Assembly (NCBI RefSeq): GCF_900111645.1
Contig: NZ_FOHQ01000001.1
Location: forward strand, 567,468-631,467
Source of the DNA: Methanococcoides vulcani
GTDB taxonomy: Archaea; Halobacteriota; Methanosarcinia; Methanosarcinales; Methanosarcinaceae
Length of the DNA: 64,000 bases
Direction: 5' to 3'
Positions 23,806-41,000 of the stretch are shown one piece after another. The stretch's first letter is position 1; the number at the start of each line of letters is the position of its first letter. Made by a program: the position numbers and the translations under genes. Below the pieces are notes generated by a model, which searched no databases, was not told where the DNA came from, and worked only from the letters and a program-made list of their open reading frames with translations.

Positions 23806-26800
23806 TCAATCTTCTGTAAATCCTTCCAGAATATCCTCTGCATCCAGATAAATGGATTGCAACTTCTCGATGGTGTCATCATCTGCATCCCACATACCAC
23901 GTTGTATCGCTTCAAGCAGACGCCCTGCCATCTGGCGCATCGCATATGGATTGTTCTCTTCTATCCATTTCCGTGTCTCTTCATCAAAGAGGAAATGATC
24001 TGCCAATGACTGGTACATCCAGGGATCTAACATATCAGATGTTGCATCCCATCCAAAAGCGTAATCAACAAGTATTGAAAGTTCCTGGGCGCCGCGATAA
24101 CCGTGTTCCTTAAGCCCGTTCAGCCATTTCGGGTTCAAGATACGGCTTCTGAAAATAAAACGCCCTTCTTCCTGTGTTGTCCGGGTTTTCGGGCGGTCGG
24201 GATCGGAACTGTCTCCTACCACTGACAGGGGATCCTTTTCTCCAAATGATTTCACTGCAGCCACCATGCCGCCATGATAGATGTAATCATCATCGTTGTC
24301 AAGTATGTCGATCTCCCTGGAATTGTGGTTCTTGATCGTCACATCAAGATCTGCGAGTCTCTGTGTGAAAAGTTCCGGCATCTTCTTTCCTTTTAACTTA
24401 CGTCCATAAGCATGTCCTCCCCATTGGACATACATTTCTGCCAGTTCCTCTCTTTCTGTCCAGCGGGAAGATTCGACCAGCTGGTCCACACCTGCGCCGT
24501 ATGTTCCGGGCGGGCATCCGAATATGCGTATAAGTGCTTTCTCACGGGCTTCTTCTTCACTCATCCCGGACTTTATGGATTCAAGCAGTTCTTCCAGAAG
24601 GTGGCGCACATAGTAGTTCTCATCTTCCGATTCATCAAGTGATGCCACCATTTCCACTCCTTCATCGATCATTTCCACAAGGTTTGGGAAAGCGTCCCTG
24701 AAAAGACCGCTAATGCGAAGCGTCACGTCGATCCTCGGGCGACCAAGTTCCTCAATGGGTATGACCTCAAGTTTTGTGATCCGTCCTCCGGCCGAAGACC
24801 ATACCGGTCTTAATCCCATGAGCCAGAGTATGTATGCGATATCATCTCCACCTGTTTTCATGGTATCCGTGGCGAACACGATAATCCCTACATTTTCAGG
24901 ATAGCCTCCCTCTTCATCGATATGCCTGTTGACCATCTGGTCTGCAAGCTTGTGGCCAACCTCCCATGCAGCAGGTGTAGGGATCAGTGAAGGGTCTATG
25001 GAATAAAAGTTTCTTCCTGTGGGAAGCAGGTGTGAGTTCCCTCGTGATGGAGAGCCGGACGGGCCAGGTGGTACATATCCGCCATCCATACCCCGCAGGC
25101 AGTTCATGACCTCATCGGTCGTAAGCCTTAGATTGGGCGCTATCACTTCACAAATATGGGACACCGCCATTTCAATTTCTGATCCGTTTGGATAAAGGGA
25201 TCGTGTATATTGGACACACTCCTCGTGTTCATAATTTTGGATATCCATCTCATGTATAAGGAGTCTTGATCTTTCATCCACATCTTCAAGCAGGGTACCT
25301 TTGAGCACACCCGTTCCTTCATGCGATCCCGATGGATCATCCTGAAGGTCACGCAGATCAAGACCTTTGTATGATGCAATACTTTCCCTGAGAGAAGGAA
25401 CCAGTCCATTGCATAATCTTGACAGGGAATACACCATCTCTGCAAAACGTTCGTCTGTCGGAGGGCGACCGAAAATATGAAGTCCGTCCTTGATCAGGTT
25501 GTCTCTGAACTCACAGATATAATCGTACAGGTCCTCAACGCGCTTTGCCAGCATCTGTATATCAGCTTCTTCCGGCAGGCCAAGGTCGTTCAGGTAATTA
25601 TGCTCTTTAACGATCTCATAGATGCTCTCCAGTACCTGTTCTGCTTTACCGGTCTCACCACTCCTTGAAGATCGGAAGTATTCCTGAAGGTTCATATCAA
25701 GGTCTGCAACTTCTGCATAGCTATCTGCACGGTTCATTGCAGGGACCAGATGGTCCAGTATAACTGCACAACTTCGCCGCTTGGCCTGTATCCCTTCTCC
25801 TGGATTATCAATGATATAAGGATAGAGGTGTGGGATCTCTCCAAGTACTACATCCGGGAAACATTCTCCGGACAATCCCACAGCTTTTCCGGGTAGCCAT
25901 TCGAGTGTACCATGGGTACCCATATGAATGACGGCCTGAACTCCAAGATCTTCAGCAAGGTATCGATAATAAGCAAGATAATGATGTGGCATCACAAGGT
26001 CAGTATTGTGATACAATGTCTCGACCTGTTCAAGGAACCCTCTTGGCGGTTGTATCCCGATAAAGACATTTCCATTCTTTACACCCGGGATCACAAGCTT
26101 GCCGTCAACCTCGAACATTTCGCCCGGAGGGGTTCCCCAATCACGACACATGACTTCCTGACATGTGGCAGGTATTTTTTCGAACCATTGCCTGTATATG
26201 TCCTTCTCTACAAGACCGGATGCCTGTTCGACCATCTGTTCAGCTGACAGCCATTCAGTATCATTGCTAACGCCTGCAAGTAGTTCTTCTACGACTTCAT
26301 TACCTGAGGACGGGATCCGTTCAACATGATATCCGTTCTTTTTCATTTCCGCAAGAAGATTTACCACACTTTCCGGGGCATCAAGTCCAAAAGCACCTCC
26401 TATACCATCACTACGTGGAGGGTTCTGGTGAAGGATAACTGCGATTTTCCTGTCCGAAGGAGGTGTTCGGCGCAGGTCTGCCCAATTCCTTGCAAGGGAA
26501 ACTACCTTATTGACCCTTTCCTAGATGGGAACCGCTTCCCGGGAGCCCTGATCTCCACTGGTCTCGGTAGTTGCTATAGGCACTGTTATTATTTGTCCAT
26601 CATACTCCGGCCAGACGACATTGGATGATAGTTCCATGGTTCCAATCCCCTGTATGTCCTCCTGCCATTGTTCATAAGAATAGTAGGTTGTCATAGCCTG
26701 TAGCACCGGTACATCCAGTGCATCAAAGAAATTGTACGTAATTTCTTTTGTAGTCCCGTCTCCCGGTGATGAAAGTGATAGCTGGGAAAAGCCCATATTT

Positions 26801-27564
26801 AGAACAAGGATCTCGATCAGTGAATTACATTGATCCATGAAGTACCGTTCAATTACATTTTTCACTCCCACAGCCCCTGTTATGGGATTCGGAGCAGATT
26901 GTGTAAATATGGCCAGTACTTCCATTCCTTTGTCTTCAAGCCCCCTTATAAGTGCATCTATGGCTTTCAAGTCACCGGTGAGCCATTGCCCCTGCCAGAA
27001 AAGAATTCCTGCTTTTGGTCTATCTGGATCCATCCTTGCAAGATGATCCTCAAGGTCCAGTATGTCGGGATGGTCCGGGTGATAGATCCCCTCGATCCTT
27101 GGACGAACGGGTTCAATTGTTTCAACATCCATCTTTGCAATGTGGTTGCAAGCCCAGAGTATCAGACCTCTGGAATTCGTTTCACCACCAAGCTGGATAA
27201 ACCTATCGACCAGTTCGTATTCTTTATCCGGAAGTCTGAAATATGGTCGTAGTTCGAGAGATTCTTCAAGTATTTCACTGTGAACGAAAACCGGAGATTC
27301 TGTCTGCTCAATATGTTCTCTTAAACGTGGGAATTTCTTAAAATATGGAACTCCACCGTGAAGTACCAGCAAAATAAGATCGGCGTCTTTAACATGTTTC
27401 AGCATTTGTTGAAAGGACCTTTCGTCTCCATCAACATCTTCAGATGTATAACTGAAAAGTTCAATATCAATACCTTCATTTTGAAGGGTCACAGCAGCTC
27501 TTGAAAGGGATGGATTACCGCCTGTTCCTGATCCAATACTTACGATCTTCATGTTATCATTCAC
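23806..27564 (-). CDS. cobN: CobN-type chelatase large subunit with in-frame amber codon
   Basis: A single 1253-codon frame from GTG 27564 (or ATG 27552) to TGA 23806, broken only by TAG at 26521-26523, codon 348. Both halves are CobN/BchH family: the first has the N-terminal domain (VLHGGVPYFKKFP, ILFWQGQW, GKAVGLSGE comes after the break), and after the break the text resumes at once with ERVNKVVSLARNWADLRR, GIGGAFGLDAPES and the metal-insertion domain (MGTHGTLEWLPGK, GGHAYGRK, GWDATSDMLD). The size fits intact CobN. The enzyme inserts a metal, cobalt in the aerobic corrin pathway, into a tetrapyrrole with help from an AAA pair (here at 36815-39792). Amber may encode pyrrolysine. Last gene of the tetrapyrrole cluster. 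Confidence 0.88.
26521..26523 (-). other. In-frame amber codon in cobN
   Basis: TAG at codon 348 of the CobN frame, between PI and ERV, in a link that in other CobN proteins runs without a break. Nothing suggests a start codon close behind it: the first ATG is 51 codons further, inside conserved sequence. Candidate pyrrolysine codon. Confidence 0.7.
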
Positions 27565-27732
27565 AGAATATTTTTTAAAATCAGAAGTTTTTCAAATTAT
27601 ATTGGGAGACTTCCTTTTCATCAATAAAAGTCCTAAAAATTGGTAGAAAAACTGAATAAATATGCAATATTAAATCTATCTCCTACATCAATGTGGGAAA
27701 TACATCAATTTTGCATATCATAGTGTTCATAG

Positions 27733-27781
27733 AAGGGTATCCAGAAACGAATGCATAAGTTTGTATGCGCTGGATACCCTT
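27733..27781 (-). promoter_or_regulatory. Long hairpin between cbiK-like gene and cobN
   Basis: AAGGGTATCCAG (27733-27744) and CTGGATACCCTT (27770-27781) form a perfect 12-base stem with a 25-base loop containing a weaker GCATA/TATGC inner stem. It begins ten bases after the cbiK-like stop codon. It may end or stabilise the upstream transcript, leaving cobN to a promoter in the remaining 165 AT-rich bases, or act as a regulatory hairpin. Confidence 0.5.
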
Positions 27782-27790
27782 TCATTTATC

Positions 27791-28690
27791 TCAAAGGAAA
27801 TTGTGGCTTTGTGCTGTCTGTTTTAGACGCTCAACAAAAAGGTCGAGGATCGCATCTTCTTTTCCAAGGACCCTTTCATCTACCTTTACATCATGACCTG
27901 CTGATTCCAGTACGTTCTTCCATGAAGATTCCTTGTCCCCATAGACGTCCATCTTTGCATGATAGCCGGCTACCATGGTGAAAGGTGCAAGTATGACCTT
28001 TTCGGCATTGATATGTGCAAGGCGGTTCTTGACCTGTTCAATACCCGGATAGCCATTGTTTGTGGCAATAACTATGCGTCCTCCGGTAATCTCATCCAGA
28101 ACCATCTGTAACTGACATAGTGTTGGGTCAGCGTTACCTTCTTCATTGGATGCCACAAGCACAACAGTCCCATCATTGAATATGGAAGCTAATGCCTCTG
28201 CAACATTGCTATAATCTTCTGCTTTCAGAAGAAGTGGGTTGCTGATAAGTATTCCATCGATGTCCAGCATTCCGTGTGGACCAACAAGATTGTTAATTCC
28301 GGAAACGACTGGGTAGATCGAATGCAAAGCATTACCTGGTGTAATATACAATGGTTGTACTACTATCTGTGAATAACCATCATCGATCAAACCTGCCAGT
28401 GCACCAAGAACACTGTTTTTTCTTTCACCCTGCTCTGCAAGAACTTTTCTTATGACATCAGAAGTAACTGCAAGTCTAAACTCTACATCCGGATAGGCTT
28501 CCTTCATTTTTGAGACACATTTGTTCACAAATTCATCACACTCTGGTGATGTTGTCCCTTCAATTACTGCAACAACTGCTCCTTTATCCTCTTTAGGAGC
28601 ACCATGTCCTGGAATATTCTCTGTCATTTTACTGATCTCCATACTTACTTTTGAAAAATTAAAATGCCTATCAATAGATTCTAATTTCAT
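27791..28690 (-). CDS. CbiK-family chelatase homologue lacking catalytic residues
   Basis: The 299-residue protein aligns along its length with CbiK, the class II cobalt chelatase acting on sirohydrochlorin: VVVQPLYITPG (about 110-119), ISNPLLLKAEDY, NGYPGIEQV (213-220), LAPFTMVAGYHAKMDVYGDKESSW (in two parts, 234-257). But the general-base His in the usual GHG motif is replaced (VASNEEG at 179-185) and the Glu before GYP is Asn (NNGYP); only the last His (His244 of AGYHA) remains. It may therefore bind a tetrapyrrole without inserting metal. The first 36 residues are extra. It follows the NifK-like gene by 77 bases. Confidence 0.75.
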   Translation of the reverse strand: MKLESIDRHFNFSKVSMEISKMTENIPGHGAPKEDKGAVVAVIEGTTSPECDEFVNKCVSKMKEAYPDVEFRLAVTSDVIRKVLAEQGERKNSVLGALAGLIDDGYSQIVVQPLYITPGNALHSIYPVVSGINNLVGPHGMLDIDGILISNPLLLKAEDYSNVAEALASIFNDGTVVLVASNEEGNADPTLCQLQMVLDEITGGRIVIATNNGYPGIEQVKNRLAHINAEKVILAPFTMVAGYHAKMDVYGDKESSWKNVLESAGHDVKVDERVLGKEDAILDLFVERLKQTAQSHNFL

Positions 28691-28767
28691 CTATTTGTCT
28701 AGGGAACATACTATATGAAATCTTTTATTATATTATAAGTAAGGCTATGCATGAAAAGTTTATTCTT

Positions 28768-30048
28768 TTAAGATAACATGCGTATGCCGTTGAGAACTTC
28801 TTCAAGGATCATGAGGGCACCGGTTGTACCCATGTATGTTTTTTGGACCATGTCCAGATATTCTCCGGCTGGAAGGGCTATCTCAATTCCATTCCTGCAC
28901 ATATTCTGGTTACGCAAAGATCCTACGGTATGACCGTCTGCGATTGCAATATCTACCGGCTGATCACCGGGGAAAATATCCCACTCATCAGTAAAACCGA
29001 TCTCCTTCATAAACTCGCAAAGAGCCCGTTCATATTCAGGATCCCCTCCGGGAAGCGTCTTTACTGCCATGGGTGCCATCCCAAGATAATAATAAAGCCA
29101 TTTGGTCAGTGGGAGTGCCAGGGAACTGTCTGCCTGAATTGAAAATGTAGCACCTTTCGGCAGACCTGTAAGTGAATTATATCTTGCTATCTTCCTGTAA
29201 GCGGTCTTTCTGGCTTGGGATATATCTTCCAATGCTCTGGATGCATCAATATCCATTGCTTCAGCTATTGAATTTAAGAATGATACAGTGGCATCAAATC
29301 CTACAGGCGCTCCTTCCGGACAATATATATAGGGAATCCCAAACTTATTTTCATACCATTTTGCGACCTGAAGTCCATATTCTGCACACAGGACGATATT
29401 AAATGAAGCCTGACCTGAAGCTTTTATTTCATCCATGCTACAGCCGGCCGGTATAACAGAACCGACTTCCACTCCCATAAGGTCCAGAAGTCTCTTTATT
29501 TCTTTGATCGTCCCCTCCCAGTGCTTATGGGATATGGAAAGTCCTAAAATGTTCACTTTTTCCGATGAACTTTTGCCGGGTTCACGTACATATTTCTTCA
29601 ATATCTCCAGCAATGTTTTTTCAAAACCTTCAGGTGCCGAGCGTGAGAAATCCACACTTTCAATGGCCACACATTGATCTTCAAGTCCCGTTTCCTTGAA
29701 TGTGTATTTGAGGTCATCCCCGATCAATGTTGCACCCGGTGAGTTGATCACCACGATGGCTCCTTTTTGTCTGGGTGCCACGTTTGGAAGAATGCTTAAC
29801 AGTTTCTCCGATGAACCTGCCACATAATCATCCTCGTCAAGATAGGTGCAGGGGATGCGTGGTTGTCCAAAATAGAATTCCTCAGCAAAAGAGAGCGGAT
29901 CAAGCGAAGACTCCCTTGGATATTGCTGGTTCGATATGTGGGCATGGTAGAATTTGCATCCTGTCGGGCTGTTCAGTACTACACAGCAATCTTCAATACT
30001 TTCCGCTGCAAAAATGGAACCTGTCAATGCATCCGGGATAAATGTCAT
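28768..30048 (-). CDS. Nitrogenase-like reductase subunit (NifK/BchB-like)
   Basis: A 426-residue member of the oxidoreductase/nitrogenase component 1 family. It begins directly in the family's first conserved strand. Of the three cluster Cys of NifD/NifK, only the middle one is kept (Cys31 in SPTGCKFY); the first is lost (DALTG) and the third is replaced ([10 protein letters not shown] instead of a Cys-Pro there). This is the pattern of BchB, which gives one ligand to a shared 4Fe-4S cluster. The gene overlaps the preceding fusion gene by ATGA, so the two are made together, presumably as a heterotetramer. The substrate is unknown; the neighbours suggest a tetrapyrrole. Confidence 0.82.
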
Positions 30049-32240
30049 CTTATCACCTCTCCGTCAATTTTCCATCCTTCGATCTCAGGGAGCCTCAACA
30101 AGCGACTCCATCTTTGTGCCATGAATATATCATTCCTGAAACCCACTTCCGGACAGAAGGGGATCGAGTCATAGTGTACGCCATCCGAGGCAAACATTGG
30201 CGGATAATTTGAAAGAACAAGATGGGGTCGATGGTCCAATATATCCTTCTCTCTCTGTTGTGCAGTATAATTATCTTCCACATGGACCTTCCCTGCATAT
30301 TTACTGGAAAACCCTTCCTCTGCTGATGAATGAAGGAGTCCGATCTTAAGAACGTCCATGCCCAGGTCGAAGATAATGTCAAGTAACCAGTCAATGCTCC
30401 GGCTGTATGTATTTATCAGTACTTTTTTACCTTGAAGGAAGGGACGCAAGCGCGTCATTTCAGCATCGTATATCTGCTTTTCTTTCTCAATGATCATCTC
30501 TGCATCATTTTTCCTGCCACTCAGGTGAGAAAGTTCCTCCAGCCATTTTGATGTCTCATTAAATCCTATCGGGAAGTTCATATCTGTAAAAGAGGCATTA
30601 AAGCAGTTCTCAAGGTGGTCCCTGACAAGCTGGCTTGAATCATCTTTCTTTGCAAGGATATTGATCTCACCTTTTTTGAACTGACGGATGGAATCAATAG
30701 TGGTACTGTTCAGGAAACGGCAGTTCACTTTCAATCCGATGTCATCAAGGAGGGATTCGATGGTCTGGAAATTAACTTCAACATTGTCAGATAGATTTTT
30801 CTCGGCTACGATATTGACAAACCCTTTTTCAGGAGATACGCTATTATCTATCAGTTCTGATACCTTTTTCCACCCTTCTACAAGGCCCTGTGCAAAATCA
30901 CCTGCAAGATTCCCGTCCACAGGTACCGGGATTATCTTAGTTCTCGGATATTGCTCCTGCACCATTGATACGGCTGTCTCAAGATCATCTCCTATAAGGC
31001 CTGCAGGGCATGTCGTTACCAGAAATACAATTTCCCAACCCTGGGATGCGGCTTCTTCAAGTTTATTCCTGAGCTCTTCCAGTCCACCGAATATGAATGA
31101 AGTCTCACCCATGTCAGTTGATGCGATCTCACCTTTGCAAGGAAGATCAGTTCCATGTCGCGATCTTGCTGCAAGCACGTTGGATGAAAGGAAGTGGGTC
31201 ACTATATGACCACAACTTCGGGGACCGTGTATTATTGTCAATGACCCGTTCACCTGGGATGTAGTGGTTACCGCACCGGCAAAAGCACAACCATGCAGTG
31301 GTTCTTTGTTCCGCACACTTTTGGAATACAGGTTCTTTCGGACTGGCAGAGTATCTTTTCCATCTGTTGGTCCTTTAGGTATATGAGTAGAGCTTATCTG
31401 GTCCGGCTTAATAACAGGTATATTCCTTCCAAGCACAAGTGTTTCCATTTCACTATTTTCCAGAGGTTTAGAAGGATACAGTCGGTTAGAACCTGTGACA
31501 AGATGGGATATATATTCGGAAAGATCCCGAAAGACGGTTGCAACATCGGAATCAGGGAATGCTTCTAATGTGGTTTTTCCCTGTTTTTCTGCCTCTGCAA
31601 AAAGCTCGCTTCTGGGTATTGATGCTACCACAGGTAATTTGACAGCTTTGGCAAAAGCATCAACTCGTTCATCTTCGTGTTCCAATCCCCTGCCATTGTG
31701 GATTATACCTGCCACCCTGGGTGAACTCCCATCAAAATTAAGTATCCCGCGCAGGATATTATTGGCAGCATACAAAGCCATGTATTCCCCGGAAGTTACA
31801 AGGAATACAGCATCAGCATATTCCCTTCGTAAGGGTACTGCAAAACCTCCACATACAACATCACCCAGTACATCATATAGTGACAGGTCAAATGGTATTT
31901 CATGTATGCCCAGCCGGTCCAGCAATTCGAACATGCTAAGGATACCTCTTCCTGCACATCCGACACCGGGTTCAGGACCACCTGCTTCAACACAGGACAC
32001 TCCCTTGTAGCCATCGAAAAGGATATCTCCAAGGAGGCGGTCTTCTGGAAGGGTATCGCGTATATATTCCATAACGGTGGTTATGCTGTTCCCGTTCGTA
32101 AGAAGACGGGTGGAGTCGTGCTTTGGATCACAGCCTATTTGGAGTACTTTTTTTCCGGATTCTGCCAGGGCAGCCGACAGATTTGATGAAACAGTGGATT
32201 TCCCAATTCCACCTTTACCATAAAGTGCTATTTGTATCAT
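30045..32240 (-). CDS. NifH-NifD-like fusion, reductase plus catalytic subunit
   Basis: A 731-residue protein joining two usually separate parts. Residues 1-250 are NifH/BchL/CfbC-like: GKGGIGKST at 8-16, CDPKHDST at 37-44, and the two Cys that hold the bridging 4Fe-4S cluster (Cys95 in VGCAGRG, Cys130 in VVCGGF). After a linker (about 250-312) comes a NifD/BchN-like domain with all three cluster Cys (Cys318 HGCAF, Cys343 RSCGH, Cys411 [11 protein letters not shown]) and [11 protein letters not shown]. No FeMo-cofactor ligands are evident, so it is not a nitrogenase. Electrons would flow from its own ATPase part to the component 1 core. The frame is unbroken, and AGGGAAAAT lies before the start. 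Confidence 0.88.
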
Positions 32241-32324
32241 ATTTTCCCTGAATTGATATTCGTTTTATGTCTTATTATTTAATAACCTTGGAATTGCAAA
32301 ACTGGTCAATTTACAAAGAGATCC

Positions 32325-33395
32325 TCATTCTCCTCTTCTATGGTGAACTGGATCCAGACCTTCAGTCTGTTGTTCTGTTGCCGTGAGCTTCCTGAGGAAA
32401 TGGACCATATCTCCTATGGAGTTGAACCGATTTGTATTATCTTCGAACCTGCAATCCCAGAATGCAATATCACTATCAATACCCACTTCAATGTGTAGTT
32501 CTGCGTTTTCCGGGCCTACTATTTTATAACCTGCTCTCTCAAGGGCTCTTGTGGTCCACATATGCTCCATTCCTTTAGCACCACTAAGGCAGGCATGTCC
32601 TTTTTCTTCAGGAGATATGACAAATACGCCCTTTTCCCTGTCAAAGTGCACACCTTTCACATCAAATGCAGATCCAAAGACTCCTCTTAGTACGAGATCT
32701 TCAGGTGCACCGGAAATAAAATTATTATTTCCATCGATCAGCCACAACCTGTCTGCAGACCTTATGGCCAGATCCAGGTCATGTGTTGATAGAAGGACCG
32801 CTCTTCCCGGATGTCTGGAAAGTGATCTGAGTATTCTCATGACCTCCACTCTGTGTGGCAGGTCAAGGAAAGCTGTAGGTTCATCAAGTATCAATAACGA
32901 TGGATCCTGTGCAAGTCCCCTTGCGATCATTACCTTCTGCTTTTCACCGTCACTTAGCTCATGGATGAACCGATGGGAGAGGTTGGTAGCTCCAACTGCA
33001 TCAAGAGAACTGCTGACCATGAACCTATCTTCTTTGGATAAGGAACCGGACCATCCGGTATAGGGGTATCTTCCCAGTGCAGCTACATCATAAGCTGTCA
33101 GGTGACCGGCACTTACAGGACTTGTCATGACTATGCTTAATAATCTGGATTTTTCAGAAGTTGTCAGGTCTGCTATGTTCTTTCCTTTGAGAAAAACATC
33201 CCCTGCTACAGGGGGTTGTAAACCTATAAGAGTTCGCAGAAGTGTTGATTTGCCTGCTCCGTTGGGACCTACAAGGCATACCAGCTCTCCTTCGTTAAGC
33301 TGGATATCCAACCCGCTGGATATAATAGTAGGTTTTTGTTTTCCGGAAATATAACCTGTGGAAAGACCATTGGTCATGAGAAGGCGATGGTTCAT
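32325..33395 (-). CDS. BtuD/FepC-like ABC transporter ATPase
   Basis: A 356-residue ATPase of a corrinoid/siderophore/heme importer. Walker A is GPNGAGKST (about 39-47), signature LSDGEKQK, Walker B LLILDEP, switch STHDLDL. The C-terminal hundred residues (about 255-356, with KGHACLSGAKGMEHMWTTRA) form an extra domain seen in some archaeal and bacterial corrinoid-transport ATPases. It overlaps the permease gene by ATGA. The associated CbiZ and CobN make a tetrapyrrole cargo likely. Confidence 0.87.
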   Translation of the reverse strand: MNHRLLMTNGLSTGYISGKQKPTIISSGLDIQLNEGELVCLVGPNGAGKSTLLRTLIGLQPPVAGDVFLKGKNIADLTTSEKSRLLSIVMTSPVSAGHLTAYDVAALGRYPYTGWSGSLSKEDRFMVSSSLDAVGATNLSHRFIHELSDGEKQKVMIARGLAQDPSLLILDEPTAFLDLPHRVEVMRILRSLSRHPGRAVLLSTHDLDLAIRSADRLWLIDGNNNFISGAPEDLVLRGVFGSAFDVKGVHFDREKGVFVISPEEKGHACLSGAKGMEHMWTTRALERAGYKIVGPENAELHIEVGIDSDIAFWDCRFEDNTNRFNSIGDMVHFLRKLTATEQQTEGLDPVHHRRGE

Positions 33396-34465
33396 ATGGA
33401 AACACCTCTGCCACTCTTGCTTCCACGAATGACGACCCAGATGACGACCGGGGCACCTAGCAGTGATGTTATCGAGTTTAGGGGAAGCATAAGATCACTT
33501 CCGGGCATCTGGGCCAGAAGGTCGGAAGCAAGTGCAAGGAATGCGCCAACCAGAGCACATGCAGGCACAAGGGTCCGATGATCAGCTGTTACAAATATGC
33601 CTCTGCACAGGTGTGGTACAGCAACACCCAAAAAAGCTATGGGGCCGCAGAAAGCTGTCACTGTTCCAGCCAGCAGTGCTGTGCTTATTATTATTAGACT
33701 ACGTGTCCTTGAGAAGTTCATACCCATACTTGTAGCATATCGCTCACCCAGTAGGAGGGCGTTCAAAGGCTTTGCCAGAAGAAAAGATGTAACCAGTCCT
33801 GTAATTGAAAATAATGTCATTATGTATACCTGTTGCCATGTGACTCCTGCAAAGCTTCCGAATGTCCATATGATGAAAGCCTGGACACGTTCTGCAGCGC
33901 TAAAATGCATAAGTACTGTCACAACAGAAGATGTCACGTATCCGAACATAAGGCCAAGGATGAGAATGGTCATGCTGTTCTCCACACGCCGGGAAACGAA
34001 CAGCACAATGAGCATTACTGTAGAGGACCCGATGAAAGCTGCCATGGCAACCCCTGCATCCCCCATGAGTCCCATGCCGGATACCAGTGCTGAGGCAGTT
34101 GAAGCACCTGCAGAAAGAACTATCAGGGCAACACCCAGACTGGCTCCGGAGCTAATTCCCAATATATATGGTCCTGCAAGTGGATTCCTGAAAAGGGTTT
34201 GCATCTGTAGACCGGCTACCGCAAGTGCAGAGCCGCCAAAGACAGCAGCGCAGGCGCGAGGGAGGCGGAAATTCAATATGATCCCCTCCCAGCTTTCTTT
34301 CTGCACATCCTGTCCTAAGAGTATTGAGATGACCGCATCAACAGGAATCTTTACAGATCCCAGTACAAGATCCAGTACGAAAAATGTACTTAAGAGTACT
34401 ATGAACAGCGTCATTAGAGGAAAGATCTTCCTTTTTGTCTCAGGACCCCGGTCATCATAGTTCAA
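33392..34465 (-). CDS. BtuC/FecCD-like ABC transporter permease
   Basis: A 357-residue FecCD-family permease with about ten helices; motifs RLPRACAAVFGGSALAVAG in two parts, NPLAGPYILGISSGAS, and GPIAFLGVAVPHLCR are intact. The start is TTG 34465, well supported by GGAGGT eight bases upstream and overlapping the stop of the binding-protein gene. Works with the adjacent ATPase and binding lipoprotein. Confidence 0.9.
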   Translation of the reverse strand: MNYDDRGPETKRKIFPLMTLFIVLLSTFFVLDLVLGSVKIPVDAVISILLGQDVQKESWEGIILNFRLPRACAAVFGGSALAVAGLQMQTLFRNPLAGPYILGISSGASLGVALIVLSAGASTASALVSGMGLMGDAGVAMAAFIGSSTVMLIVLFVSRRVENSMTILILGLMFGYVTSSVVTVLMHFSAAERVQAFIIWTFGSFAGVTWQQVYIMTLFSITGLVTSFLLAKPLNALLLGERYATSMGMNFSRTRSLIIISTALLAGTVTAFCGPIAFLGVAVPHLCRGIFVTADHRTLVPACALVGAFLALASDLLAQMPGSDLMLPLNSITSLLGAPVVIWVVIRGSKSGRGVSI

Positions 34466-35682
34466 TTCTGTGTACCTCCGGTTAAAGGTGCAAGCTGCTG
34501 GTAATAGACAAATTCGTGTTCAGGCAAAAGTTCCGGATGGAAGATCTTTACCATATCTGCAAGGATATCTTCAGGGTGGACAATACCCGATTCATGGTAA
34601 TCATTGCCTCCCCATTCGTTTACCCTGCGGTTGTTATTGTAGACGTTCCCGGATTTGGCGGCTACAAAATCAAAATAGCGTTCATCATCTGCCTTTGCTT
34701 CGTCAAGACTGGACCAGATTCCTGTATCTATCCAGTAGTCCGCATCCAGTGACCTGTCATATACTGATTCAAAACCAAGGGTCATGCTTCCGCTTGAATT
34801 GTCCTCAGACCACAGGTATGAAGCACCAGCATCCTCCATCAGGCGGGCAGCATAGCTTTTTCCACCCGGGGTGTACCAGGTGCCTTGCCATGATACTCCG
34901 GAAAATACTGTAGGTTTGTCTTCCACCTGATCTGCAAGGGATGAAATGTATTCATATTCTGTGACAACTTCATCAAAGTAGAGGTTTGCTTCATGTTCTT
35001 TGTTGAAAAAAAGGGATGTGAACTTGACCCATTCAGTTCTGCCGAGAGGATGTTCCTCCATATAATCTGCGTTAATGACAACATCAAGCCCAACCTCTTC
35101 CAGTTTTGGATGAACATCATAGGCAGGATTGCCTGTTGCATATGTCATGACAACATCAGGGTCAATGTCCATGATCACTTCGAGATTGATTGAATCGGCT
35201 CCGCCAACTTCCACAACACTGCCATCCTCTACCATTTCAAGTACATACGGACTGTTCACGTATCGAATATCCTTATGCCCTTTGAGATGGTCTGTGACAC
35301 CAAGTATCTCCAGATGTGGCAGGTAAGTTGTGGATATGGTCACTATGCCTTCAACGGGTATCTCAAAAACAGTAGCTTCTTCATATCCATCCGGTATGCT
35401 GGTTCCTCTCTGGACCAGAAGATATACTAAGGATTCTTCGGCTCCGCGCCAGGGCTGGTTGACAGTTACTACTTTGTATGAATCGTAATATTCCACTGAA
35501 AAACGGCTGGAATATTCAACCTCTACCTTTTCAGGGAACAGGTCTCCTTCTTTAACTATATTACTATCTATATTTACTTCACTGCCGAAAGCCTGTTCAT
35601 CATTCGGGGAGGATCGATCCGAAATGCAACCTGCTGCTATGACAGCTAGCAGGATGGCAACCAATACCAGATGTTTCATCAT
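34462..35682 (-). CDS. BtuF/FepB-like substrate-binding lipoprotein
   Basis: A 406-residue periplasmic-binding protein of the helical-backbone class, with a lipoprotein signal peptide (lipobox AAGC, Cys about 19) and the family hallmarks VTTYLPHLEILG-like TT.LP, DPDVVMTYATG and GVSWQGTWYTPGG. Such proteins bind corrinoids, heme or ferric siderophores outside the membrane. A TATA-like AT-rich patch precedes it (35690-35760), so the transporter may also have its own promoter inside the cluster. Confidence 0.87.
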   Translation of the reverse strand: MMKHLVLVAILLAVIAAGCISDRSSPNDEQAFGSEVNIDSNIVKEGDLFPEKVEVEYSSRFSVEYYDSYKVVTVNQPWRGAEESLVYLLVQRGTSIPDGYEEATVFEIPVEGIVTISTTYLPHLEILGVTDHLKGHKDIRYVNSPYVLEMVEDGSVVEVGGADSINLEVIMDIDPDVVMTYATGNPAYDVHPKLEEVGLDVVINADYMEEHPLGRTEWVKFTSLFFNKEHEANLYFDEVVTEYEYISSLADQVEDKPTVFSGVSWQGTWYTPGGKSYAARLMEDAGASYLWSEDNSSGSMTLGFESVYDRSLDADYWIDTGIWSSLDEAKADDERYFDFVAAKSGNVYNNNRRVNEWGGNDYHESGIVHPEDILADMVKIFHPELLPEHEFVYYQQLAPLTGGTQN

Positions 35683-35768
35683 AAACCATTACCTCTGTAA
35701 ATAATCTTTCTTAGCAAAGAAGCTCATGATATAAAAATAGATGGATTTAAATTAAAATAATTTTATCT

Positions 35769-36779
35769 TTAACGAGTCCACTGATTGCCATTTAGTGATC
35801 CACATTGTAATCTTAACTTCCGATCAAGTTCATCCAGTCCCTTGGTTACGAATTCATGAGTAAGGTAATTCGGTGATACAATATCCACGATATCTTTACA
35901 TTTAGTTATGCTAAAAGGCATATGTTGATCGATCTTCCCCACATGTTCCATTATGTCCATATAGCTTTCAGAAAAGTTCTTTTCCTGAAGATGAGGGGGG
36001 TGCTGTGGCAGTATGCTCTCTTTCTGGTAATCTCCTGAAAGACTGTAATGAAAGTGCATTCCTTCGATCTTTTCGATGATCTCACGTGGAAGTTTATCAA
36101 GCCTGTCCAGCACAGTACCTACAGCACAATTTTCCTCATTACAGCACATAGTGGCATTCATAAAATGACCTGTATCCAACAGGAACGCCCAGTTGTTAAA
36201 ATCAAGCATGTCACTAAAACGAAGGGTCAGTTCGGGATCAAGCAAGGTAAGACCTGGCCACCAGAGATTCTCGAAGAAGAGTCTTACCGGAGGTTCCCCA
36301 TCAGGAAAATGTGAGACTGCTTCATTAAGGAGGTCAGCGGTAGCACACAGGACATCTTCATCTGTGCAACCGTGGTTGCGTGTGAAGACCTGGTCCGTTT
36401 CAACATAGCTAACATGGAAAACTGCGTATGCAGGATCAAACGCTGAAACATTTTCCATGGTGTTACAAAACCTTGAGATCAATTCTTCCCTGTTGCGGCC
36501 ACCATATATGATATTGATCTCCCATTCCTCCAGACCCTCAAGATCAGGGTCGCCTGTTAGCAGCTTGAAATAAGCAAAGGGACTTGGAAGGTGAACTCCA
36601 TGTACAAGGTGTGCAGGTATCTCCGGTAGAGGTTCATTTCCTACCAGAAGTTCCAGCCCATTAAGTCCATGTCCTGAAACGAATTGTTCCAGTGAGCTCC
36701 AGTCCCCTCCAAACCTTTCGATATCACAGGGATAGATGGAAAAATTCACCAGTTCCTTTATTTCCTTCTGCTTTATCAT
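35769..36779 (-). CDS. TIM-barrel protein (sugar phosphate isomerase/AP endonuclease 2 fold)
   Basis: A 336-residue protein of the PF01261 xylose-isomerase-like TIM-barrel group. Conserved points are HGVHLPSPF, RLFFENLWWPG (metal-binding Glu), LLDTGHFMNA (Asp, His) and IEGMHFHYS (His), the usual metal-site residues. I start at ATG 36779, with AGGAA nine bases upstream, not at a TTG at 36818. It sits between the AAA chelatase genes and the importer genes. Its substrate is not known; an epimerase or lyase step on a tetrapyrrole side group or a nucleotide sugar is possible. Confidence 0.7.
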   Translation of the reverse strand: MIKQKEIKELVNFSIYPCDIERFGGDWSSLEQFVSGHGLNGLELLVGNEPLPEIPAHLVHGVHLPSPFAYFKLLTGDPDLEGLEEWEINIIYGGRNREELISRFCNTMENVSAFDPAYAVFHVSYVETDQVFTRNHGCTDEDVLCATADLLNEAVSHFPDGEPPVRLFFENLWWPGLTLLDPELTLRFSDMLDFNNWAFLLDTGHFMNATMCCNEENCAVGTVLDRLDKLPREIIEKIEGMHFHYSLSGDYQKESILPQHPPHLQEKNFSESYMDIMEHVGKIDQHMPFSITKCKDIVDIVSPNYLTHEFVTKGLDELDRKLRLQCGSLNGNQWTR

Positions 36780-36814
36780 ATTGGCATTTCCTTTTATATT
36801 CAGTATTGCTGGGA

Positions 36815-38779
36815 TCAATGATCCCTATGGACCAGATGTCTGATAGAACCTGCCAGAGCTGCTGAATTCAGATCTTCCAGGCGGAAATAGGTTCCCTGGA
36901 GAGTCGAACATAATTTTGCTGCAAGACCCAGGCGTGGGAATCCTGATTCGGTATCGACGACCACAAAACGAACTGGCAGGTCTGCAGCTTTGTTTGCTAT
37001 GTCAAGAGCTTCCTCAAAGGCATCGGATCCACCCGCTGAAACATTTGCCCTGCCGTCGGAGACCAGAACAATAACAGAATCATTTTCCGAGGACATACTG
37101 CTGCCTGTCATTAATGTCACAGCCCGGGTCAGGCCTTCTGCAAGAGGTGTCTTGCCGCCGGTTGGCAGGGTTTGAAGCTTCCTGTAGGCAAGATCGACAC
37201 TTCGTGTTGGTGGCAAAAGAAGTTCGGCGCTTTGGTCCCTGAATACCATCATGCCCACAGCATCACGTTTGCGGTATGCATCTTCGAGCAACGATAGGAT
37301 GGCACCTTTGACCGCTATCATCCTTTTCCTCGCACCCATGGAACCGCTACCGTCCACCAGGAACAGGAGGTTCGTCCCCTTCTTACTTACCCGTACCTTC
37401 TCCCGCAGGTCACATCGTTCAAGAGCCACAGCAAGACCTTTTTTTTCTCTCAAATGCTGGTACGGTGCAGCTGCCCTTAATGTTGCATCAAATGCCAGAT
37501 CATGCACTCTGTCACGAGGATACCGAAATGCAACGTACCTTCCCGAACCACTTTTTGAGATCACATTATCTCTTCTACCTCTTGAAAGCGATTCTTTCAA
37601 ATGGGAGTTGTCTATGTTTGCAAGATAATCGATGACCACAAAAGGATCTCCGACATCGGCGACACTATCATCAAGGGAACCAAATGTCTGTGGTTCTGAA
37701 GTGGGAGGTTCGTCATCTTCTGTTCCTGAAGATCCATCGTCAGTTAATTCTGAAGATATGTCATTCTCATTTCCCTCTTCTTCACGGCTCTCATTATTTT
37801 GGTTTCCATTGTCCGGACCATCAGCTTCGTTTTGGTTTTCATCATCGGTTTTATCAGTTTCATTCTGTTTTTCAGACTCGTTCTTGTTAGTGGCGTTTGA
37901 AGGCTGTGGCTCGTTGCGCCTGTGTTCCAGACAGAGTAAAGCAGCTTCTTTAAGGTCTTCAAAAATGACCTGATCCCTTCCTTCAAGAGCTGCAATAGCC
38001 CTGGCAGTCCTGGCAACTGCGATATCACCCCTATGACCTTGTACACCCATTTCGGTGGCAAGGCGCGCTATCAGTTCCATATGCCCTTCAGGAAGGATCA
38101 CATAGCTAATTCTTTGTTTTGCTTTTATCAGCTTTTCACGTAGGGATAGGATATCCTGTTGGGAGTCGATCACTAAAGCAGTTGAATTAGCTTCATAGGC
38201 CAGACGTTTCCTGATAACTTCAATTCGATCATCTATATTATCGAGGGAGTCCATTTGCACACAAAGGTCGAAACGATCCATGACATGAGCTGAAAGCATG
38301 CCTCCAGAAGGGTCCATGGTACCGACCAGCAGGAACCTGCAGTCATGTTTCCATGAGATTCCTTCCCTTTCCACGATGTTCTGGCCTCTTTCTGCAGCAT
38401 CGAGGACAGATCCTACAATACGTTCGTCCAGCAGATTTATTTCATCGATACAGATAATTCCGTCATGTGCTTCATGCAGAAGACCAGGAAGCACATTTTT
38501 TCGTCCTTCGATAATGCTTGACTCAATATCCACAGAACCTAACACACGCTCTTCCGTAGCATTAAGGGGAAGGTTCACAAAAGGCATCTCAGGTAGAAGG
38601 CGATCTATTGAACGGACAAGCGTGGATTTCCCTGTCCCCCTTCTTCCCATTAGGAGTACGTTATTTATTTCCGGGCATATCAATGCAGAGATAAGGGCCT
38701 TTTTGGCATTTTCCTGCCTTACTATGGCAGTAAATGGATAACTTTGCCAGTTCAATCGTCCAGTCTTTTTACAAGCCAA
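36815..38779 (-). CDS. Fused ChlI/ChlD-like chelatase motor subunit
   Basis: A 654-residue AAA+ plus von Willebrand A protein like BchD/ChlD/CobT. The N-terminal AAA domain has a working Walker A (GRRGTGKS, 45-52) and Walker B ([11 protein letters not shown]), unlike many ChlD in which these are dead. A long acidic, Asn/Glu-rich linker (about 275-365) leads to a VWA domain with MIDAS DGSGSMG and the TPLAEGL motif. The start is TTG 38779 with a strong GGAGGAG site eight bases before; it overlaps the preceding gene by 28 bases. It should form the motor ring for CobN together with the ChlI-like protein. Confidence 0.85.
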
Positions 38780-39792
38780 GTTTCAAGCTCCTCCATGTCA
38801 AGATAGCCTTCTTCAAATGGACGGCGTCTCATCCTGTGAGGTAAAGCCAAGCGTGCTGCTTTTAGAATATGTTCTAATCCAATTGTATCTGAACCATCCA
38901 GTGCAGCTGCAGAAATTGCTGCTTTTACCAATGTCAGGTCTGCCCTGTGACCATCCACTCCAAGATGAAGTGATATCTCCACCGCTGTGCGGAGAAGATC
39001 TTCATCAGGTTTGATTTGAGCTAATCTCTCACGGGCGCTGATGATGGCTTGTGTAATTTGTTCTTGCTCATCCATATATTCGGATATGAACGTATGTGGG
39101 TCTGCTTCGAATGCAAGTCTTCGCCGGATCACTTCCATGCGCCGATTCGTGTCCTGTTCACCGGCTACATCAACAGCCAGACCAAAACGGTCCAGAAGCT
39201 GAGGTCTCAGGTCTCCTTCTTCCGGGTTCATGGTCCCGACCATAACAAAACGTGAAGGATGTGAAAAGGAAACACCTTCCCTTTCTACGAAATTGACACC
39301 CATCGCTGCTGCATCGAGAAGCAGGTCTACCAGGTGATCATCAAGGAGGTTGATCTCATCAACGTAAAGTATGTTGCCATTTGCCCGGGCAAGAACTCCT
39401 GGCTCAAAACGTTTTTTCCCACTAGTAAGTGCATGCTCGATGTCAAGGGTTCCGGCAACTCTGTCTTCTGTAGCACTCAGGGGAAGTTCTACGACTCTCA
39501 TGGGGCGCGATTCAAATACGATCTGCTCCCCTCTCTCAACACGTTGCCTGCAATCTGCGCAGAGGTGTTCATGATCAGATGATATACAACCATAAACACA
39601 GCCATGAACTGCCTTTCTTTCCGGGAGGAGATCTGCAAGAGCTCTGACTGCAGTTGATTTTGCAGTTCCTTTTTCCCCGCGTATAAGTACGCCACCGATA
39701 GATGGATCGATCACGTTCATCAGTAGTGCTTCTTTCATGGCTTCCTGACCCACGATCGCACTGAACGGGTAAACAGGTCTTTCCATGCTCAT
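38752..39792 (-). CDS. ChlI/BchI-like AAA+ chelatase subunit
   Basis: A 346-residue AAA+ ATPase of the magnesium chelatase I group: Walker A GEKGTAKS (39-46), Walker [12 protein letters not shown], sensor NPEEG and [11 protein letters not shown] four-Cys insert (Cys65, 69, 78, 81) could bind zinc or a cluster. It overlaps the end of cbiZ by ATGA and the start of the ChlI/ChlD-like gene. With CobN and ChlD it would make a three-part class I chelatase. Confidence 0.9.
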
Positions 39793-41000
39793 TGCCTATC
39801 ACCATATAAATTGGGGCATTTTCCATTCTTGACTATCCATGCTGTTATGGAGATCCAATTGTCCATAATGGATTCACGTTCATTCAGAAGCACATCCATT
39901 GGAACATCTTCCTGTGCTCCCAAAAGCTGTGGGAGTTCACGCATCATTGCAAGAGCAGCTTTCCTTCCGGCATTTTCTGGAATGAGCCCCCACGAGATCT
40001 CATCAATTATGTGGAGCACGGATGCAACATATCCTACAAGGGATGGATTGCAGGAAATTTCCCGAAGATCTTTGAGAAAACGTGCTTTCTTGTTATCTCC
40101 ATCCATTGCGGATGCAACTTTCCAGTAATTGCTCTCATCCACGCCGAAACGATCAAGTCTTACCAGCATGTCCCGCTGTGTTAGGGGAGTTAGTTCTGAC
40201 TGGAGCCCTACTGCTTCCTGCACTCCTTCCAGCACACACTTGCCGATCATCTCTCCGAGTTTAGAATGCTTTCCTGCATCTGTTAGTGTCATGGAACTTG
40301 TGCTATCCACGACCACGGCTATCATATCTGTTCCTGAACCCGTGGCAACACCATTGGAATAACGGCTCGAAGCCATCAATTGTTGCAGTGCTGCTGTCTT
40401 AGCTTCGGTGGCTGTCATCAGTACCCTTGTCAAAGCATATGGTGGCATATTAGCCCCTATCAGAAGAATAACGTTGATGGTGCCGCCTACAGGCTCATAT
40501 CTTTCATCTTCCTGATAATAAGATGCAGGATCGCCGGCCCGGCCACCATTTACTTCAATACCTCCGGTAACGACCGCAGTTACTTCCAGTCCTCTGAATG
40601 ACTGGGTCTTTATGACAGCATTTCTCATATTCGCAGCGGTCAACAGACCAGATGCCCTGGATGGGTCCAGCCCAAGCCTTGATGCCGCTATCTTGAGGTA
40701 TTCGGGTACGCTTCCACCTTCAAGTTCATGGGAAGTGCGACCTTTGGTCGGGACCTTATGATTAAATATACCTTTCAGATCTTCCTGGCATCCCCCATTG
40801 ATCCAGGATGTGGTCAATGTACGTCTCTTTGCCGGGAAAGTTACTATAATGGAAGTATCCTGAAGGTATACACGTTCCCCGTTAGAAGTTTCAAAAAGGA
40901 TCTTTCGTTCATTTTCAGTATTCGGGCCGATGTCGATTGTTCCAGTTCCTGAAGATTCTGTTTTTATGTCTGTTTTATCGGTCATGAAGATCGCATCCAC
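39789..41000 (-). CDS. cbiZ: CbiZ-type adenosylcobinamide amidohydrolase
   Basis: The 403-residue protein belongs to the CbiZ family, which cuts the aminopropanol side chain from cobinamide to give cobyric acid, the archaeal way to salvage corrinoids. Family motifs are [40 protein letters not shown] and [13 protein letters not shown]. The first 30 residues and the last 120 exceed a bare CbiZ domain. ATG 41000 is used; an ATG five codons later is possible. First gene of the cluster, with an AT-rich promoter (41040-41110) before it. It ties the cluster to corrinoids. Confidence 0.8.

Follow-up and report, generated by a model that had tools for sequence, protein, structure and literature searches.

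Introduction

CobN-type enzymes are cobalt/magnesium-inserting chelatases. Kivenson et al. (Science, 2025) have reportedly described an archaeal genetic code in which all TAG codons stand for pyrrolysine (Pyl).

A pyrrolysine-containing CobN is not a new idea: it was proposed in 2005, when Chaudhuri and Yeates named the CobN homologue of Methanosarcina acetivorans as a Pyl candidate (PMC1242214), and was disputed in 2007, when that homologue was considered a probable pseudogene owing to an additional TAA (PMC1914089). The Thg1 protein of M. acetivorans has been observed to contain Pyl, which its activity does not require, and an amber codon introduced into this organism was read through at 20-30% (PMC2933860). 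A preliminary description of the locus studied here held that Pyl in a metal chelatase would be notable. Pyl outside the methyltransferases has a measured precedent in Thg1.

A CobN frame crossed by one TAG codon

We analysed a 64,000-nucleotide stretch of the Methanococcoides vulcani genome, referred to below as the window. On its minus strand, two ORFs of 347 aa (26521..27564) and 853 aa (23806..26367) share one frame. Apart from the TAG at codon 348, this frame contains no stop and no frameshift in 1252 codons (Table 1). The joined protein scored 1002 bits against the equivalog model TIGR02257, above its cut-off of 822 bits, and PF02514 spanned residues 122-1231 continuously, across the TAG, with 1276 bits. 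By these family assignments the frame is a single predicted CobN gene, which bears out the preliminary observation, and the 904 open codons of homologous sequence past the stop are not a product of chance.

The closest CobN orthologues, at 66% and 64% identity, belong to other genera of the same family; both are uninterrupted and align end to end with the 1252 aa, in accord with the earlier statement that about 1250 residues is a normal CobN length. The preliminary description had also taken the bases after the TAG to encode standard CobN sequence, and residues 349-399 indeed share 76.5% identity with the closest orthologue, compared with 56% upstream of the TAG and 69% further downstream. The residues right after the TAG are therefore the best-conserved part of the protein relative to this orthologue. 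Near-invariant CobN columns are kept on both sides of the codon (9 of 10 upstream, 95 of 97 downstream).

Table 1. Features of the cobN region (window positions) and of other genes crossed by an in-frame TAG.
Feature	Position	Strand	Remarks
CobN-type chelatase large subunit (predicted)	23806..27564	minus	1252 codons + TGA, one in-frame TAG
TAG codon 348 of cobN	26521..26523	minus	variable position directly before conserved stretch
Codons after cobN TAG	26368..26520	minus	conserved CobN sequence, absent from second annotated ORF
CbiK-type chelatase, intact	27791..28690	minus	PF06180; beside cobN in orthologous loci too
Nitrogenase component 1-like protein (NflD/BchB-like), intact	28768..30048	minus	neighbour kept in loci L112, L114
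NifH/CfbC-like reductase fused to nitrogenase component 1-like domain, intact	30045..32240	minus	
Three ABC uptake genes: ATPase, FecCD permease, periplasmic binding protein	32325..35682	minus	
ChlD-like (AAA + VWA) chelatase motor subunit	36815..38779	minus	
ChlI-like (AAA) chelatase motor subunit	38752..39792	minus	
CbiZ, adenosylcobinamide amidohydrolase domain	39789..41000	minus	PF01955
SepCysS	C5:136085-137239 (L046:16085-17239)	minus	TAG at codon 102
CcmF-like cytochrome c maturation protein	C5:550019-551014 (L067:10019-11014)	plus	TAG at codon 181; orthologues L202-L206, L208
B12-dependent ribonucleotide reductase NrdJ	C5:371722-373818 (L058:11722-13818)	minus	TAG at codon 258

Residue 348 in CobN homologues

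The residue found at position 348 in relatives had been proposed as a check. This position is highly variable: it holds Met or Arg in the closest orthologues, Pro in the aligned M. tuberculosis CobN (7c6o), and M, R, K, P, D, E, Q, A, N or G among about 40 homologues that extend to the site. None of these homologues is split there, in agreement with the earlier reading of one gene rather than two. TAG occurs at codon 348 in no CobN orthologue that we compared, and a scan of genome contigs found three named relatives, none of them with TAG; a TAG conserved between species was seen for SepCysS and the CcmF-like gene, not for CobN. Judging from the alignment, position 348 is tolerant and probably sits in a loop ahead of a helix, with the N-terminal region on one side and the central region on the other. 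Because no relative carries the TAG and the position is variable and probably in a loop, a Pyl at this site would probably be incidental or tolerated, without a catalytic role.

Pyrrolysine genes and TAG usage across the genome

The presence of pylTSBCD elsewhere in the genome had been named as another check, and all five genes were found: a tRNA-Pyl with a CTA anticodon beside pylS, then pylB, pylC and pylD. In-frame TAG codons are present in the MtmB, MtbB and MttB genes of the same genome, which encodes one aRF1 release factor scoring over its cut-off. The stop of the pylB gene (L036:7795-8907, minus strand) is likewise a TAG, and 42 more codons beyond it are open; TAG-ended pylB genes have been reported for M. 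mazei, M. acetivorans and M. burtonii (PMC2933860).

Gene calling with a simple hexamer model, applied to 1.15 Mb of a genome of 2.31 Mb, gave 979 genes, which end in TGA (527), TAA (437) or TAG (15). Ten of the 15 TAG-ended genes continue into coding-like sequence, as against 35 of 437 ending in TAA and 34 of 527 ending in TGA; those of the TAA and TGA cases that were aligned with a congener mostly resemble neighbouring genes sharing a frame. The ten TAG cases comprise MttB, two MtbB, CobN, SepCysS, the B12-dependent ribonucleotide reductase, a CcmF-like protein, an FrhB-like protein and two that were identified by inspection, a NosD-like repeat protein and a surface protein. Very few genes in this genome seem truly to end at TAG; of the five other TAG-ended genes, four reach another stop after 3 to 42 codons. 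Usage is similar in the congener G010, where TAG ends 13 of 1039 genes.

Frames of this genome were also compared with their G010 orthologues. In the filtered list, with short arms set aside by eye, TAG faced a sense codon in a small number of genes, one here (CoaBC-like, C5:418582, where congeners have CAG for Gln) and four in G010, including FpoH and a TnpB-like transposase; in the same comparison TAA interrupted one frame and TGA none. Control counts of interrupted orthologues were confounded by wrong N-terminal starts and then by antisense shadow frames, and the filtered count was used. In the FpoH-like gene (F420H2 dehydrogenase subunit H-like; G010:C1 near 1882593) TAG replaces a TTG codon for Leu. 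At C5:526037 (minus strand) a TAA takes the place of a CAG of G010 inside a conserved frame about 150 codons long, which shows that ordinary nonsense mutations occur too.

Selection downstream of TAG in other genes

Three of the other TAG-crossed genes could be followed through the genus. At codon 102 of SepCysS, three species have TAG and eight have CAG. Between the two closest TAG-bearing species (G007 and G010), the sequence downstream of the codon differs by 30 synonymous and 2 nonsynonymous changes, giving a dN/dS of 0.019. Codon 181 of the CcmF-like gene is TAG in 7 of the 10 gene-bearing genomes of the genus, this one included, and CAT (His) in the other three; dN/dS downstream of the TAG is 0.11-0.17 between TAG-bearing species. 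In NrdJ the congeners have CAG at codon 258, and a second NrdJ copy, in G009 (L111), carries a TAG at codon 104.

Proteins that remain under selection downstream of a TAG must be translated through it, and on this comparative evidence TAG works as a sense codon in this genome and genus. The CcmF-like gene is a better Pyl candidate than CobN, and the wider finding, that conserved housekeeping genes carry TAG, is a stronger result than the CobN case.

Gene neighbourhood and other CobN copies

ChlI/ChlD-type AAA partner genes were found near cobN, and the genes of the cluster are open in this genome. The cluster (window 23806-41000, minus strand) is patchy within the genus, and is partly deleted in G009 (L035). 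The parts shared with G009 show dN/dS values of 0.09-0.14 and are thus evolving under constraint. Among ten congeners, a near relative of this cobN was found in G009 only, with about 181 codons left at 88% identity. Since this genus mate has lost the rest of the gene, cobN is dispensable in the genus. The M. vulcani genome also encodes a second CobN, free of interruption, at C5:511572, along with two further members of PF02514. The preliminary description had argued that losing either half would destroy the enzyme; with a second CobN in the genome and the gene mostly lost in G009, this argument fails.

Discussion

We consider it very likely that the TAG at codon 348 is read as pyrrolysine and that M. 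vulcani has an intact Pyl-containing CobN, the best reading of a TAG in a genome where this codon has sense. The cobN gene would then be intact and encode one 1252-residue CobN-type chelatase subunit. The TAG would be decoded by PylS-charged tRNA-Pyl(CUA), placing pyrrolysine in a variable loop, and some ribosomes may halt there to give a 347-residue fragment. In the genus as a whole, TAG is nearly gone as a stop and serves as a rare sense codon. We infer from sequence that the cobN mRNA is read through, that Pyl is the residue inserted and that the product functions. The preliminary description had come to the same reading; the pyl genes, the unsplit gene and the sense use of TAG genome-wide support it, while its essentiality argument is lost and no relative shares the TAG. 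A PYLIS-like hairpin or stimulatory RNA structure was not found 3' of the cobN TAG (z = +1.37), and no such structure is known to be required for TAG readthrough (PMC2933860).

Since every CobN orthologue compared lacks the TAG, the codon may have arisen as a recent nonsense mutation. An accessory cobN would in that case be starting to lose its function, a pseudogene in the making in which suppression by tRNA-Pyl is incidental; the truncated copy in G009 and the intact CobN elsewhere in the genome agree with this. We regard such decay as unlikely: the frame has accumulated no second stop or frameshift in its 1252 codons and keeps its conserved residues, the remaining genes of the cluster are open, and TAG would not be a null mutation here, because conserved genes genome-wide read through it.

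Mechanical gene calling yields two ORFs, as would be expected of a gene split into two subunits, the N-terminal one stopping at the TAG and the C-terminal one starting afresh at GTG 26367 or nearby. We examined this GTG as a restart: a GGAGG lies upstream, about 27 bases off, and belongs to the coding sequence of the conserved GIGGA motif, and there is no properly spaced ribosome-binding site. The strongly conserved residues 349-399 just after the TAG would fall in neither protein, and the homologues reaching the site are all unsplit, making two subunits highly improbable. That the TAG is a sequencing or assembly error is scarcely credible, even for a draft of 15 contigs and the only genome of its species in the comparison: TAG-crossed genes recur at the same codons in this and other genomes of the genus, so that TAG inside genes is real there, and random errors would produce TAA and TGA as well.

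If the TAG of cobN is read as pyrrolysine, the supply of Pyl might gate the metal-tetrapyrrole chelatase, so that full-length CobN would appear only while Pyl synthesis is induced by methylamines. We think this quite unlikely; if true, it would tie a nitrogenase-like tetrapyrrole cluster to growth on methylamines.

With these results, a metalloenzyme subunit of 1252 residues joins the likely pyrrolysine proteins. They also show that TAG works as a sense codon in housekeeping genes of the genus (SepCysS, ribonucleotide reductase and a cytochrome c maturation-like protein), so that standard annotation splits real genes here. The set of TAG-crossed genes provides defined cases of how an extra amino acid spreads through a proteome when codons change in a near-neutral way.

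M. tuberculosis CobN (7c6o) and the Mg-chelatase ChlH (4zhj) match the present protein in sequence over residues 182-1247 and 165-1249, respectively; both are without Pyl. The cobN of M. vulcani has CbiK and nitrogenase-like genes linked to it. With the M. acetivorans homologue this gene shares the CobN family, an in-frame TAG and membership of the Methanosarcinaceae, but that gene has an in-frame TAA besides, while the present one has no other stop. The methyltransferases MtmB, MtbB and MttB of the Methanosarcinaceae resemble it in having a single in-frame TAG and pylT and pylS in the same genome; their Pyl is catalytic and its site conserved, in contrast to the variable CobN site with a TAG in no relative. 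Thg1 is closer in this respect, having a species-specific in-frame TAG absent from relatives' genes and Pyl outside the methyltransferases, although Pyl was seen physically in Thg1 and is predicted from sequence in CobN. At the level of the genome, the likeness is to the archaeal code of Kivenson et al.: here too TAG is nearly absent as a stop and is found inside many unrelated genes.
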